Assembly: GCF_026000775.1 (NCBI RefSeq)
Contig: NZ_AP026830.1
Span: 310,001 to 374,000 of the forward strand
Reading direction: 5' to 3'
Origin: Vulcanisaeta souniana JCM 11219
GTDB lineage: Archaea; Thermoproteota; Thermoprotei; Thermoproteales; Thermocladiaceae
Length of the DNA: 64,000 bases
Shown here: piece by piece, positions 12,849 through 59,760 of the stretch
Numbering within the stretch: the stretch's first letter is position 1
Layout: every line of letters begins with the position of its first letter
Made by a program: the position numbers and the translations under genes
Notes under the pieces: generated by a model
Told to the model about the DNA's origin: nothing
The model's input: only the letters and a program-made list of their open reading frames with translations
The model's database searches: none

Positions 12849-14009
12849 GTGAAATCCAAGGGAAGACTTATCTTGGATTCAATAATAAATTCAAGCGATA
12901 ATTTATTAATAATCACACCGCCATTTATTAATTCACTGCTGGCGTCAATAATAATATTAATTGAGCGATTTAGAAGAAATCTACTAACGCACGTAACGCT
13001 ATTGACACTTGAGTCATTAAATGATTTAAGGGACGTGGCGGGTAGGTATAATTCAATTCTATTTGTCGAGCCACCATCAATCATGAGACTTAGTGAAATC
13101 ACGAATTCATTCAATGGCAAGAGATTATTTATAATAGGTAAGGAGGATGCGGAGTGGGTTAATGCAGATACCTACCTTGAGTATTCAGTTTCCATGCCGC
13201 AGTTAATATGGCAATTACTGAACAATGAGTTAGGGCAGGATTCACTTAGATTCTTAGAGGCGGCAATAATCTATGAGCTAATGATAGTCCCCAATTACGA
13301 CATATCATCATTTAATGGCTGGTCGGTCACAGAACCCATTAACTTCCCTGCATTACCAGGTATACTTAGGCTACCATTGAGTGCATCTCTCTCACGCGCC
13401 CTTTCGCCAATAATACCGGGAATTACAGGTAATGAGACTGAGGCTAGAAATCTTGTGAAGGTCATTACCAAGAAGGCGAATGCAACATACAGGGAACTTG
13501 GTGAGGATGAGGTAATGACTTTACTAAAGTATATAGGTGATTTCATGCTTAGGGCAGGTTTTAGGGGTGATTACCTCGATAAGCTAATACTCATGCAAAG
13601 AAAGTGGAGTGATACGGATGTTGATGTTTTAGAGTCAATACTGGCAATAGAGGCTCAGTTGTCACTTTGGGAGTATATAAATGGAATAATGAGTCCGGTA
13701 CTTAACCCACAAAGCGTTGGGGATACCGATAATGTGGTTGCTAAATACGTATCTGTGATTGGTGAATACCTAGGTCAGTTGGGCAAGGCTAATGACATTG
13801 TCTTAAGGCAGGGATATCAATCATTAACCCTAGTGGACAGACTATGTTCAATAATGAACTTCTATACAGAAAGCCATAACCAGTCATTCGCAATAGAAGG
13901 CAGTCCACTAAAGATAATGTGCATATTCAGTAATGAGGAGGTTGGCGATGCAGAGTTAGTGTTTAAACGCACTGGCTACTCAATGGCCGTAAGGGGACTA
14001 AGGCAATGA
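12849..14009 (+). CDS. Degenerate RecJ/Cdc45-like protein (archaeal Cdc45 candidate)
   Basis: A 386-residue protein from GTG 12849 that resembles no family strongly. The N-terminal ~100 residues look like an alpha/beta sheet fold as in DHH phosphoesterases, but the DHH and other metal-binding acidic motifs are not visible. The main evidence is gene order: it overlaps pcc1 by four bases, and rps3Ae follows, which is the archaeal neighbourhood of RecJ/Cdc45 homologues. Crenarchaeal Cdc45 proteins are catalytically dead and join GINS and MCM in the replicative helicase. If right, this is a strongly diverged subunit of that complex. A structure prediction would settle it. Confidence 0.55.
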   Translation: MKSKGRLILDSIINSSDNLLIITPPFINSLLASIIILIERFRRNLLTHVTLLTLESLNDLRDVAGRYNSILFVEPPSIMRLSEITNSFNGKRLFIIGKEDAEWVNADTYLEYSVSMPQLIWQLLNNELGQDSLRFLEAAIIYELMIVPNYDISSFNGWSVTEPINFPALPGILRLPLSASLSRALSPIIPGITGNETEARNLVKVITKKANATYRELGEDEVMTLLKYIGDFMLRAGFRGDYLDKLILMQRKWSDTDVDVLESILAIEAQLSLWEYINGIMSPVLNPQSVGDTDNVVAKYVSVIGEYLGQLGKANDIVLRQGYQSLTLVDRLCSIMNFYTESHNQSFAIEGSPLKIMCIFSNEEVGDAELVFKRTGYSMAVRGLRQ

Positions 14010-14263
14010 GGGTTAAGGGAAAGGTTACCCTAAGCATTACGATGAAGACGTTCGAGGATTGCCAAGCAGCCCTCCTTTCACTATTGCCTGATGAAAGGGA
14101 TTTACCACCAGGCCTGTCATCAAGCATTAAATGCATTGGAAACCAGTTAATATATGAACTAAATTATGATATTGATAGTGAGAAGTTATTAAGTATTTAT
14201 AATACAGTTGATGATTTCATTAGGAACCTAAGGATACTCATGGATTCCCTCAATACCCCATGA
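14006..14263 (+). CDS. pcc1: KEOPS complex subunit Pcc1
   Basis: An 85-residue protein of the CTAG/Pcc1 family: an N-terminal beta strand, a helix with FEDCQAALLSLLPDE, two strands, and a C-terminal helix with VDDFIRNLRILMDSL. Pcc1 dimerises and binds Kae1 in the KEOPS complex that makes t6A on tRNAs. It overlaps the Cdc45-like gene (ATGA). Another KEOPS subunit, Bud32, lies at 20.0-20.7 kb. Confidence 0.8.
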   Translation: MRVKGKVTLSITMKTFEDCQAALLSLLPDERDLPPGLSSSIKCIGNQLIYELNYDIDSEKLLSIYNTVDDFIRNLRILMDSLNTP

Positions 14264-14280: not shown

Positions 14281-14308
14281 GGGTTTTTTGATTATCGATA
14301 AGACCACC

Positions 14309-14980
14309 GTGTCAGCGCAAAAGCAGGCCAAGACAGGTAAGTGGATGATAAAGAAATGGTTTACCATTTACGCCCCTACACTATTTAATGGGGTGGAGAT
14401 TGGCGAGGTTCCCGCCAATGAACCCAACGATATCATTGGAAGGACGATAGAAATAACGTTATTCGACATAACCAAGGACCTTAGCCACCTACACATTAAG
14501 CTTAGGTTCCAAATAGACAGGGTAGAGGGCGATAGGGCATACACTAGGTTCAAGGGTATGGAGCTAACAAGGGACTACATTAAGAGCCTAATTAGGAGAG
14601 GATCAAGCCTTATACAATTGATCCAGGACATAAATACCACAGACAATGCTGTTCTAAGGGTCACAATACTGGCAATGACACCAACTAGGTGCAAATCAAG
14701 CCAAAAGAGGGCCATTAGGAAGGAGTTTATAAAAGCGTTAATGGATGCATCGGGTAAGGTTGACTTTAATGGTTTCGTAAAGGCCGCGGTGTATGGTGAT
14801 ATTAGTAATCAATTATTCGCCGTCGGTAAAAAGATATACCCGCTAAGAAAGGTCGAGGTTTATAAGATAAAGGTCTTAAGATACCCAACTGGCGGCGGCG
14901 AGACAAAGCCTACTGAGGAGGTAAAGATTACTGAGGCGGCGGCCGCTCAGCCTTCATCTTCGCTTTCATCGTCCTCCTGA
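14309..14980 (+). CDS. rps3ae: 30S ribosomal protein S3Ae (eS1)
   Basis: A ribosomal protein eS1 of about 223 residues. Recognisable parts are the start MSAQKQAKTGKW, KKWFTIYAPTLFNG, GRTIEITLFDITKD, HLHIKLRFQ and the basic C-terminal half with FIKALMDASGKVDFN. An upstream TTG at 14288 keeps the frame open, but the GTG at 14309 fits the TATA box and the usual family start. The last ~35 residues (Pro/Thr/Glu, then poly-Ser) are encoded in DNA that overlaps the convergent KH-protein gene by 34 bases. Confidence 0.92.
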   Translation: MSAQKQAKTGKWMIKKWFTIYAPTLFNGVEIGEVPANEPNDIIGRTIEITLFDITKDLSHLHIKLRFQIDRVEGDRAYTRFKGMELTRDYIKSLIRRGSSLIQLIQDINTTDNAVLRVTILAMTPTRCKSSQKRAIRKEFIKALMDASGKVDFNGFVKAAVYGDISNQLFAVGKKIYPLRKVEVYKIKVLRYPTGGGETKPTEEVKITEAAAAQPSSSLSSSS

Positions 14981-19532: not shown

Positions 19533-19985
19533 CTATGCAAGCATTGAGAATGCCTCCGGTGTATATACGAAATCCTGTGGCAACTTACCTACACGCTTAT
19601 AGTACTTCACTAACCTATAGATCTTTGACTCGACTAGGTTTAACCCCCTCTTTGCGCTTAAGTCCTTGGGGTGTTCCTCAAGGTGTTTCCTGATCCTTAC
19701 GGCTCTCCTGATCGTGTTCATAAGGTCCTCAGGGATTTGTGGAGCTAAGCCGTGTTCCTCAAGGATCTTCGTTATTGTCTTACCAAGGACAGGCTTTATG
19801 AGTGGTATTCCATACTGATCCCTAAGTATTATGCCGATCATTGATGGCGAGAAACCCCTCTTAGCCAACTCAATGACTAGTTGTTCAACCTCCTCCTGCG
19901 TGTATGAAACCCATGAAGGTGTTACCTTAGATACAGGCCTTGTACTTGCACTCCTACCTCGCTTATGCCTACTACGGTGAGGCAC
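19533..19985 (-). CDS. rps15: 30S ribosomal protein S15 (uS15)
   Basis: A 150-residue archaeal/eukaryotic-type uS15. The start [17 protein letters not shown] is typical, then [21 protein letters not shown], the archaeal N-terminal extension, followed by the core with [20 protein letters not shown]. It binds 16S rRNA early in small-subunit assembly. In many archaea rps15 lies beside the RecJ/Cdc45 gene; here it is about 5.5 kb away and on the other strand. Confidence 0.95.
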
Positions 19986-20043: not shown

Positions 20044-20715
20044 TCATCTAACGGAGTACCTAACCATCTTCCTCACTTTATTGACAATTGCTTTAACCCT
20101 ACCCGTTAACTCAAACCCTAGGACGCTCTCATAACCACTAAGGAATTCTGCGAATAGAAAATGGCTTTGGTCCTTACGTAAAGCTTCGAGTGATCTCAGG
20201 GTTACATTGAGATCAAGAGCCAACTTATATAGCATTCTAACGTCCTGTATCGTAGGTGCCCTGCCCAGGGTCTCCGACAAGCCAAAGTCTATGATATATA
20301 GCTTGTCCCCAACAATTAATACATTAGCTGGAGTTGGGTCTCCATGCACTATGCCATTTCTGTGCAATACACCTATGTAACTACCCATTGTCCTTATGTA
20401 ACTAATAATGGCGGCATTGAAGCCATTACTGCTGCTCATCAATAACCTAACCAGAGGAACCCCATTAAGGTACTCCATCCTAATTCTCATATTAACTGGG
20501 TCGACATCATAAATCCTAGGTACGTGTATCCCTAGCTCTCTGGCCCTTATCATGGCCCTGGTTTCATTAATAGTCCTTGACCTACGAATATAATTATCGA
20601 ATTCGACCCTCCTGTAACCTTTAGGCAATCTCTCCTTAACGAGAACAGTTAATCCCAGCCAATCCTCCAGATATAGCACGGCCTCCGCTCCAATAGCAAT
20701 TATCTTACGATTCAC
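20044..20715 (-). CDS. bud32: KEOPS complex kinase/ATPase Bud32
   Basis: A 223-residue minimal protein kinase of the Bud32/PRPK type. It has GAEAVLYLEDW in place of a glycine loop, the invariant Lys region KERLPKGYR, the catalytic loop HGDPTPANVL and the metal loop IIDFGLSE. It acts as an ATPase that drives t6A formation by Kae1. As usual for Bud32, it lacks the large kinase substrate lobe elements. It stands alone, apart from kae1, but pcc1 is in the same region. Confidence 0.9.
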   Translation of the reverse strand: MNRKIIAIGAEAVLYLEDWLGLTVLVKERLPKGYRRVEFDNYIRRSRTINETRAMIRARELGIHVPRIYDVDPVNMRIRMEYLNGVPLVRLLMSSSNGFNAAIISYIRTMGSYIGVLHRNGIVHGDPTPANVLIVGDKLYIIDFGLSETLGRAPTIQDVRMLYKLALDLNVTLRSLEALRKDQSHFLFAEFLSGYESVLGFELTGRVKAIVNKVRKMVRYSVR

Positions 20716-40063: not shown

Positions 40064-41022
40064 TTGGGCACAGATATCTTGCCCAGGTATTCAAGGACTA
40101 TGTCCCTACCCGTGATCTCGCTCTCTATTGCATACTCGGGCTTTAGCACGATCCTGTGCCCAAGCGTATCCGCAGCCACGGACTTAACGTCATCGGGTAT
40201 TACGTAATCCCTACCATCAATAACGGCTATGGCCCTGGCAATCCTCAGGAGCGATAATAAACCCCTCGGGCTTGGACCAGCAGCGACCCTTTCATCGTCC
40301 CTAATCACCCTGAAGGCAAGTATGTACTTAATGATGTCCTGGTCAACCCTAACCTTACCCTCTATGAACTGCCTAATCGCGAGCAAGTCATTGGTGTTCG
40401 TGATAGTATTAGCATAACCCGTTGGGTCATCAGTCATCCACTTAATCCTCCTACTCAATAACTCACCCTCCTCATCCTCACTTGGGTACCCAAGGCTCAT
40501 CTTAAGCATGAACCTATCCATCTGAGCCTCAGGTAGTGGGTAAGTGCCCTCGTACTCAATCGGGTTCTGCGTCGCAATAACAATGAACGGCTGTGGTAAC
40601 TTATACGTCTCGCCCTCAATAGTTACCTGGAGCTCCTCCATGGCCTCAAGGAGCGCCGCCTGGGTCTTCGGTGGAGCCCTATTAATCTCGTCGGCCAGTA
40701 TGAAGTTCGCGAAGACAGGCCCTGTCATTACCACAAACCTGCCCTCACTCGGTCTCCAAACTTTAGTGCCAACTATGTCACTGGGCAGTAGGTCTGGAGT
40801 GAATTGTATCCTTGAGAATTGAAGCCCCAGGACCTTTGCCATGAGTTTTGCAAGGAAGGTCTTACCAACGCCAGGCTTATCCTCTAGGAGCACGTGCCCA
40901 CCAGCCAAGGCCGCAGCCAATATCTTCCTAATCACCTCCTCCTTACCTGAGTAATAACCAAGTATCTCACCAACAATGGCCTTAATCTTACCCCTAATCA
41001 TATCTATATTTAATGCGGCCAT
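40060..41022 (-). CDS. MoxR-family AAA+ ATPase (cluster A)
   Basis: A 320-residue MoxR ATPase. Walker A is GGHVLLEDKPGVGKTFL, Walker B LADEINRAPPKTQAALLEAM; sensor 1 lies in IATQNPIEYEGTYPLPEAQ, and the arginine finger and sensor 2 regions are also conserved. MoxR ATPases act as chaperones for metal insertion or complex assembly and nearly always sit next to DUF58/VWA genes, as here. It is the first gene of the six-gene cluster A operon and is ~60% identical by eye to the cluster B copy. Confidence 0.92.
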   Translation of the reverse strand: MAALNIDMIRGKIKAIVGEILGYYSGKEEVIRKILAAALAGGHVLLEDKPGVGKTFLAKLMAKVLGLQFSRIQFTPDLLPSDIVGTKVWRPSEGRFVVMTGPVFANFILADEINRAPPKTQAALLEAMEELQVTIEGETYKLPQPFIVIATQNPIEYEGTYPLPEAQMDRFMLKMSLGYPSEDEEGELLSRRIKWMTDDPTGYANTITNTNDLLAIRQFIEGKVRVDQDIIKYILAFRVIRDDERVAAGPSPRGLLSLLRIARAIAVIDGRDYVIPDDVKSVAADTLGHRIVLKPEYAIESEITGRDIVLEYLGKISVPK

Positions 41023-58806: not shown

Positions 58807-59760
58807 ATGAGTAAACTAAGCATTGACTACATCACTGGGAAGATTAGGTCGGTGATTGACGAGGTTATGAAGTACTTCGTCGGTGATGAGGCAGTTATAA
58901 TAAAGATAATGGCTTCTATACTGATTGGTGGGCACGTACTACTTGAGGACGTACCAGGTGTTGGTAAAACCTTCCTATCTAAGATGCTGGCTAGGGTCCT
59001 TGGGCTCAAGTTCAGCAGGATCCAGTTTACGCCTGACCTACTGCCCAGCGACATAGTTGGCACTAAGGTTTGGAGACCTGATAAGGGCAGTTTCGAGTTA
59101 GTGCTTGGCCCAATATTTGCCAATTTCATACTGGCCGACGAGATTAATAGGGCTCCTCCTAAGGTTCAGTCTGCCTTGCTTGAGGCTATGCAGGAGGGCC
59201 AGGTGACAATTGAGGGCGAGACCATTAAGCTACCGCAACCATTCCTCGTGGTCGCCACGCAGAATCCCATTGAGCTCGAGGGAACATACCCACTACCGGA
59301 GGCACAACTGGACAGGTTCATGATAAGAATAAGACTAGGATACCCAGGGGACGAGGTTGAATTACTTAGGAGGAGGATCTCGTGGCGTAGTAATGATCCA
59401 ACATCTCAAGTAAGGACTATATTAAGTGGTGACGAGCTTATGGCAATTAGGGAGTTCATAGAGGGCCAGGTAATTGTTAGTGACGATGTCATGAGGTATA
59501 TAACGGGCTTTAACATAATTAGGAGGGACCCAAGGGTTATAGCGGGTCCCAGTCCCAGGGGTTTAATGATTTTAATGAGTGTGGGCAGGGCCATGGCTGT
59601 GATTGAGGGTAGGGATTACGTGATACCTGATGACATAAAAAAGGTAGCCATAGAAACGCTTGGGCATAGGATTGTCTTAAAGCCTGAGGTTTCTCTAGAG
59701 GGCGTTAGCGGTGAGGATATCGTCAGGGAATACATCGAGAAAATACCAGTGCCCAAGTGA
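58807..59760 (+). CDS. MoxR-family AAA+ ATPase (cluster B)
   Basis: A 317-residue MoxR ATPase with Walker A GGHVLLEDVPGVGKTFL, Walker B LADEINRAPPKVQSALLEAM, ATQNPIELEGTYPLPEAQ and a conserved C-terminal helical lid. It is a full-length paralogue of the cluster A MoxR and is followed by DUF58 after six bases. Confidence 0.92.
   Translation: MSKLSIDYITGKIRSVIDEVMKYFVGDEAVIIKIMASILIGGHVLLEDVPGVGKTFLSKMLARVLGLKFSRIQFTPDLLPSDIVGTKVWRPDKGSFELVLGPIFANFILADEINRAPPKVQSALLEAMQEGQVTIEGETIKLPQPFLVVATQNPIELEGTYPLPEAQLDRFMIRIRLGYPGDEVELLRRRISWRSNDPTSQVRTILSGDELMAIREFIEGQVIVSDDVMRYITGFNIIRRDPRVIAGPSPRGLMILMSVGRAMAVIEGRDYVIPDDIKKVAIETLGHRIVLKPEVSLEGVSGEDIVREYIEKIPVPK

Follow-up and report, generated by a model that had tools for sequence, protein, structure and literature searches.

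The cdc45 locus in Vulcanisaeta

The window is a stretch of 64,000 nucleotides from the genome of Vulcanisaeta souniana JCM 11219, which is assembled as one contig of 2,432,148 bases. It contains a cdc45/recJ-like gene that has lost the catalytic residues of a nuclease, followed by pcc1 and the gene for ribosomal protein S3Ae (Table 1). The stop codon of cdc45 overlaps the ATG of pcc1 by 4 bp (ATGA, 14006-14009). The preliminary description of this locus had noted a 386-amino acid protein lacking a DHH motif ahead of pcc1 and rps3Ae, and this is borne out by the open reading frame and by the matches of the neighbouring genes. The GTG start of cdc45 is common to most of its relatives. The longest frame of rpS3Ae begins at TTG 14288, and alignment of the start with those of relatives points to GTG 14309 as the probable true start. 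Orthologous S3Ae regions are found in Vulcanisaeta sp. UBA163 and V. distributa JCM 11217, among others.

Table 1. Features of the cdc45 locus, in window positions, and the corresponding candidate in a Caldivirga-type genome.
Feature	Position	Strand	Description and evidence
cdc45/recJ-like gene, nuclease-dead	12849..14009	+	386 aa, GTG start
Degenerate DHH-type alpha/beta domain	12849..13286	+	residues 1-146; AF2 strand-helix alternation, Foldseek, hhalign
Motif I position, catalytic residues lost	12912..12938	+	residues 22-30; hhalign residue map, HMMER against 5x4h
DHH motif position, lost	13134..13148	+	residues 96-100; hhalign residue map
CMG-interacting domain (CID)	13341..13589	+	residues 165-247; Pfam DHH_CID, SSO0295_fam, PDB profile search
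Small C-terminal alpha/beta domain (predicted)	13821..13997	+	residues 325-383; DHHA1-like position; AF2 secondary structure
pcc1 (KEOPS subunit)	14006..14263	+	NCBIfam NF011470, 43.6 bits against a cut-off of 27; Pfam 0.001
rpS3Ae	14288..14980	+	Pfam 1.5e-69; directly after pcc1
rpS15 (uS15)	19533..19985	-	ancestral member of the RecJ neighbourhood; 5.5 kb from cdc45-pcc1-S3Ae
Bud32/RIO-type kinase	20044..20715	-	adjoins uS15, as in relatives with the ancestral order
Caldivirga-type Cdc45 candidate	G012:C1:1655174-1656307; L066:7175-8308	-	CID motif largely eroded

In the sister genus (g3; loci L034/L084, L083 and L099) the genes run in the order Bud32-type kinase, uS15, cdc45 homologue, pcc1, S3Ae and a KH protein. 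Since the kinase, uS15, cdc45, pcc1 and S3Ae genes lie in one run there, the uS15/kinase pair and the cdc45-pcc1-S3Ae block have probably been split apart in Vulcanisaeta. The uS15-RecJ-Pcc1-S3Ae neighbourhood is present at this locus, with pcc1 and S3Ae adjacent, uS15 5.5 kb off and the full order kept in g3. An active RecJ occupies the slot between uS15 and S3Ae at five crenarchaeal loci that are more distant (L089 and L091-L094).

Orthologs of cdc45 occur in all 11 of the other Vulcanisaeta genomes at 37-89% identity, and the same gene order surrounds full-length homologues throughout the genus. The dN/dS ratio among the Vulcanisaeta orthologs is 0.13-0.17. A ratio this low, together with full-length homologues across the genus, shows that this is a real, working gene under selection. 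Eight of the 11 genomes have an uninterrupted full-length frame, and in a ninth the open frame is truncated by the end of the contig. In two draft assemblies (G003:C15:24547-25705 and G005:C6:87596-88749) it is broken. Those two breaks, and the loss of the catalytic residues, are what a decaying pseudogene might display. Yet the genes beside the broken frames are themselves broken (L078, L104), which suggests sequencing errors in the drafts, and neither the open frames elsewhere in the genus nor the dN/dS values fit decay, so that we regard it as vanishingly improbable.

Lost and retained elements of the protein

The N-terminal domain aligns collinearly with RecJ in hhalign, and has a pLDDT of about 80 in a model built without RecJ sequences. 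The residue map from the same alignment places the RecJ motif I SHxDADG over T-P-P-F-I-N-S, so that DxD becomes F26-I27-N28. DHH is replaced by G97-K98-E99, the motif II aspartate by E74 and the motif IV aspartate by I146. The set of residues that characterizes an active RecJ/GAN nuclease (DxD of motif I, the motif II aspartate, DHH and the motif IV aspartate) is therefore not found, and judging from the sequence all the metal-binding residues are gone, with the possible exception of E74.

The CID is a different matter. The signature P-L-x9-P-[FIY]-[IL]-P-G-[LI]-[ST]-G-N-E is intact, in the form P-L-x9-P-I-I-P-G-I-T-G-N-E, and the domain is recognized as that of the archaeal Cdc45/RecJ (GAN) family by Pfam DHH_CID, by the PDB profile search and by SSO0295_fam. 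The CID belongs to the GINS-associated GAN branch; the HAN proteins have neither a CID nor an interaction with GINS (PMC5717133, PMC7776575). The RecJ profile alignment stops near residue 320, and the C-terminal ~60 residues are beta-rich with no GGGH motif. They are predicted to form a domain that is DHHA1-like in position only.

Homology with RecJ and Cdc45

Searched singly, the protein gives a sole Pfam match, to DHH_CID (E 0.024, 15.5 bits against a curated cut-off of 27). The same model is the best match in 10 of 14 family members, each being under the curated cut-off when taken singly. In NCBIfam the best match is SSO0295_fam (E 2.5e-7), where 30 bits falls short of the equivalog cut-off of 350. 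When the single protein was searched against 101 genomes, those weak matches outside its own taxonomic family that were translated proved to be RecJ-like and aligned in the CID region, and most of them carry an intact DHH motif.

Profiles reveal the relationship more clearly. A profile of 13 family members, without any RecJ sequence, was searched against all PDB sequences and returned four matches, all to archaeal RecJ/GAN, of which the first three are P. furiosus RecJ (6.3e-8 for entry 5x4h, and 1.2e-7) and T. kodakarensis GAN (5ghr, 4.3e-5). The P. furiosus alignments (5x4h) span motif I and then the CID, in the correct order. Comparison of the family with 10 active crenarchaeal RecJ sequences by hhalign gave 98.8% (E 5.7e-17) over 306 columns; a repeat scored 134.5, whereas none of 60 column shuffles exceeded 27.7 and the reversed profile reached 18.5.

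In the reciprocal direction, the RecJ profile finds only two matches in the whole genome. One is the cdc45 gene of the window (E 1.2e-7, in the CID), and the other is a small DHH-DHHA1 protein without a CID. The preliminary description had proposed a catalytically dead Cdc45, a reading that another clear Cdc45 elsewhere in the genome would have contradicted; the RecJ profile search gives no second Cdc45 candidate. The true Cdc45/RecJ might nonetheless be sought in another DHH protein, at G000:C1:1010576-1011466 or 1201676-1201930. The first of these retains intact DHH and DHHA1 domains and matches the RecJ profile at 9.2e-8, but it is a protein of 333 amino acids without a CID, its match is limited to the DHHA1 end, and it matches models of the Mn-pyrophosphatase/NrnA type as well as RecJ. 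The 314-amino acid DHH protein is unmatched by the RecJ profile. That either is the Cdc45 of this organism appears extremely unlikely.

The predicted fold

A first AlphaFold (AF2) model was calculated from 12 family members with no RecJ sequences in the alignment. Its overall pLDDT is 61.7; the N-terminal alpha/beta domain is modelled confidently, whereas the middle part is uncertain. Foldseek finds 42 PDB matches at E <= 1e-3, each of them to RecJ/GAN of archaea, RecJ of bacteria or Cdc45 of eukaryotes; an unrelated protein first appears at 3.6e-3. TM-scores over the query are 0.34-0.45, low because the arrangement of the domains is unsettled. In a second model a Thermoproteus member, one half-worn RecJ and six active RecJ sequences were added, and the pLDDT rose to 88.6 with a pTM of 0.91. 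The top matches are P. furiosus RecJ (1e-14, TM 0.7) and entry 7e15, a GAN complex (8.6e-14), and Cdc45 of the human, frog and yeast CMG follows at about 1e-9 to 1e-10. Since RecJ sequences entered its input, this high-confidence model cannot on its own count as independent evidence of homology, as the first model can.

The DHH-type alpha/beta fold of the N-terminal domain is thus indicated by the model without RecJ sequences, by Foldseek and by hhalign. The alternative of a fold unrelated to the DHH phosphoesterases, which the preliminary description had left to be decided by prediction, gives way to a DHH/RecJ/Cdc45 fold, and with the profile matches and the lost catalytic residues this upholds its proposal of a dead Cdc45/RecJ. 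An unrelated hypothetical protein, lying in a conserved neighbourhood by chance, would account for the weakness of the standard single-sequence searches. Profile, reciprocal profile and fold, though, all indicate RecJ/Cdc45 and nothing else, and we give that explanation almost no weight.

Role and partners in the replicative helicase

We conclude, with a probability of about 0.92, that this is the archaeal Cdc45/RecJ of Vulcanisaeta, orthologous to GAN of Thermococcus and to the RecJdbd/Cdc45 of Sulfolobus (SSO0295), and that its DHH domain has been inactivated. Homology, the gene neighbourhood and the retained CID lead us to infer a role in the replicative helicase. The CID would attach the protein, as a structural component, to the B domain of Gins51, and together with GINS the protein would clamp onto the hexamer of MCM, activating the replicative helicase without degrading DNA; the dead DHH domain would serve as a scaffold. 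Both the binding of Gins51 through the CID and the activation of MCM are proposed on the model of GAN and of the Sulfolobus Cdc45 (PMC5717133), and so go a step beyond homology.

The expected partners can be located in the genome. The gene for a GINS protein (GINS23) at C1:490758 is closely followed by the MCM gene at C1:491849. A Gins51-like protein of 173 amino acids (G000:C1:2355545-2355658, minus strand; L154) scores under the Pfam Gins51_C cut-off, and the Gins51-like proteins of Vulcanisaeta align with a Pyrobaculum-type protein that exceeds it. On this alignment the 173-amino acid protein is likely to be a strongly diverged Gins51. Two frames of AAA-type ATPases in the window, at 40540-40899 (minus strand, 326 aa) and 59128-59271 (plus strand, 325 aa), are weakly matched by the profile for MCM (E 7e-4 and 0.26); these are probably other AAA ATPases, not MCM.

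A former Cdc45 might instead have lost its replication role and now serve translation or tRNA modification with Pcc1 and the ribosomal proteins. Its overlap with pcc1, the adjoining rpS3Ae and the extreme divergence of its sequence could all be read in this way. The same neighbourhood also flanks active RecJ/GAN (PMC3307487), however, so that gene context cannot separate a Cdc45 from a protein with such a changed role. The CID motif is kept, the genome has no other Cdc45, and Caldivirga-type genomes keep the gene away from both uS15 and S3Ae. Against these observations a loss of the replication role seems very unlikely, and we retain the reading of a nuclease-dead Cdc45.

A Cdc45 candidate in Caldivirga-type genomes

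In the 2012 survey Caldivirga maquilingensis was the sole archaeon without a RecJ homolog, and its neighbourhood was not conserved (PMC3307487); the exception is repeated in PMC3655853. A profile made from Vulcanisaeta and its sister genus g3 matches a single open frame of 367-381 codons in each of five genomes of the Caldivirga type (g2, another genus of the family), twice and in the correct order; the proteins have 366-378 amino acids. One of these genomes (G012, a single contig of 2,077,567 bases) is presumably C. maquilingensis IC-167, going by its size and its kinship to Vulcanisaeta; its frame is matched at E 1.5e-11 and 1.4e-8. Comparison of the Vulcanisaeta/g3 and g2 groups extends over 322 columns (99.0%, E 4.7e-18), with a score of 132 against at most 22 for shuffles. 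In the reverse search, the best match of a g2-type profile is the cdc45 gene of the window, or its ortholog, in 11 of 12 Vulcanisaeta and four of five g3 genomes.

The G012 candidate adjoins a gene for an agmatinase/arginase and not pcc1 or uS15, in agreement with the 2012 remark on the unconserved neighbourhood. In a fourth genus (G014) uS15 is immediately followed by a gene of the g2 type, and this restores the argument from synteny. The RecJ profile gives no other Cdc45 candidate in G012, save a small DHH-DHHA1-type protein. The Caldivirga-type profile alone has no matches in PDB and no direct match to RecJ (0.7%), and the Caldivirga type joins the family only through the profile of Vulcanisaeta and its sister genus. 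Neither Pfam nor NCBIfam gives anything useful for the proteins of the Caldivirga type (L066) or of Thermoproteaceae (L085).

Two other matches were set aside. One, of the family profile in L064, is by sequence a pyruvate:ferredoxin-oxidoreductase-like protein and was dropped as a chance match; the other, of Gins51_C in a Caldivirga-type genome (L155), looks to be of the GINS23 type, not Gins51.

These profile comparisons make it very probable that the Caldivirga-type genomes do have a Cdc45, reachable only by way of the Vulcanisaeta branch. All Archaea would then possess a Cdc45-like subunit, one whose interface with GINS could be rebuilt beyond recognition in the sequence. The literature searched contains no subsequent report of a Cdc45 in Caldivirga, although papers beyond it could exist.

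Comparison with known RecJ and Cdc45 proteins

How does the Vulcanisaeta protein relate to those already described? Makarova, Koonin and Kelman in 2012 assigned the dead RecJ homologs of Thermoproteales to arCOG05692, predicted from the neighbourhood and from a remote link to the RecJdbd of Sulfolobales with no direct link to RecJ; Vulcanisaeta is unmentioned in their text (PMC3307487). The window protein shares with arCOG05692 its neighbourhood of uS15, Pcc1 and S3Ae, its size and an inactivated DHH domain. A Thermoproteaceae set, composed of the frames between uS15 and pcc1 together with two profile matches, aligns with the Vulcanisaeta family in hhalign (96.1%, E 3e-9), and so we consider the window gene a member of this known kind. 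In contrast to arCOG05692 as described, the Vulcanisaeta branch still carries the CID motif and gives direct matches to active RecJ. Two things appear to be new: the branch seems to act as a sequence bridge that ties arCOG05692 to active RecJ directly, and it seems to reveal the Cdc45 of the Caldivirga-type genomes, the single exception of 2012. That Thermoproteales keep a dead Cdc45 is confirmed by independent profile and fold evidence, and this missing link appears to close the only published exception to the presence of Cdc45 in every archaeon (PMC3307487; PMC3655853).

A further protein, of 400 amino acids, is a half-worn RecJ/Cdc45 (L100:2634-3833, plus strand) encoded between a zinc-ribbon (TFS-like) gene and pcc1-S3Ae; downstream lies a PCNA-like gene. 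It is intermediate between the active and dead forms. The proteins can thus be set out as a series from active RecJ (L089, L091-L094) through the half-worn form (L100) and the worn forms of Vulcanisaeta and Thermoproteaceae to the nearly unrecognizable Caldivirga type, and this series of wear should be useful in asking what the CMG helicase minimally needs from Cdc45.

The Sulfolobus Cdc45 (SSO0295, RecJdbd) is likewise a nuclease-dead crenarchaeal Cdc45, and its profile matches in the CID region. The score of the window protein is far under the equivalog cut-off of that family, and we therefore regard it as a separate branch. With GAN/RecJ of Thermococcales (5ghr, 5x4h) it shares the order of DHH domain, CID and C-terminal domain, and the predicted fold; GAN is an active 5'-3' exonuclease, whereas the window protein is without the motif residues and falls short of it by about 90-115 residues. 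The Cdc45 of eukaryotes, too, is a catalytically dead DHH protein in the CMG helicase, and Cdc45 of the human replisome (7pfo) is matched by the model that includes RecJ sequences at a Foldseek E of 3e-10, at an identity of about 8-11%. In the scenario of PMC3307487 the eukaryotic protein was inactivated separately.
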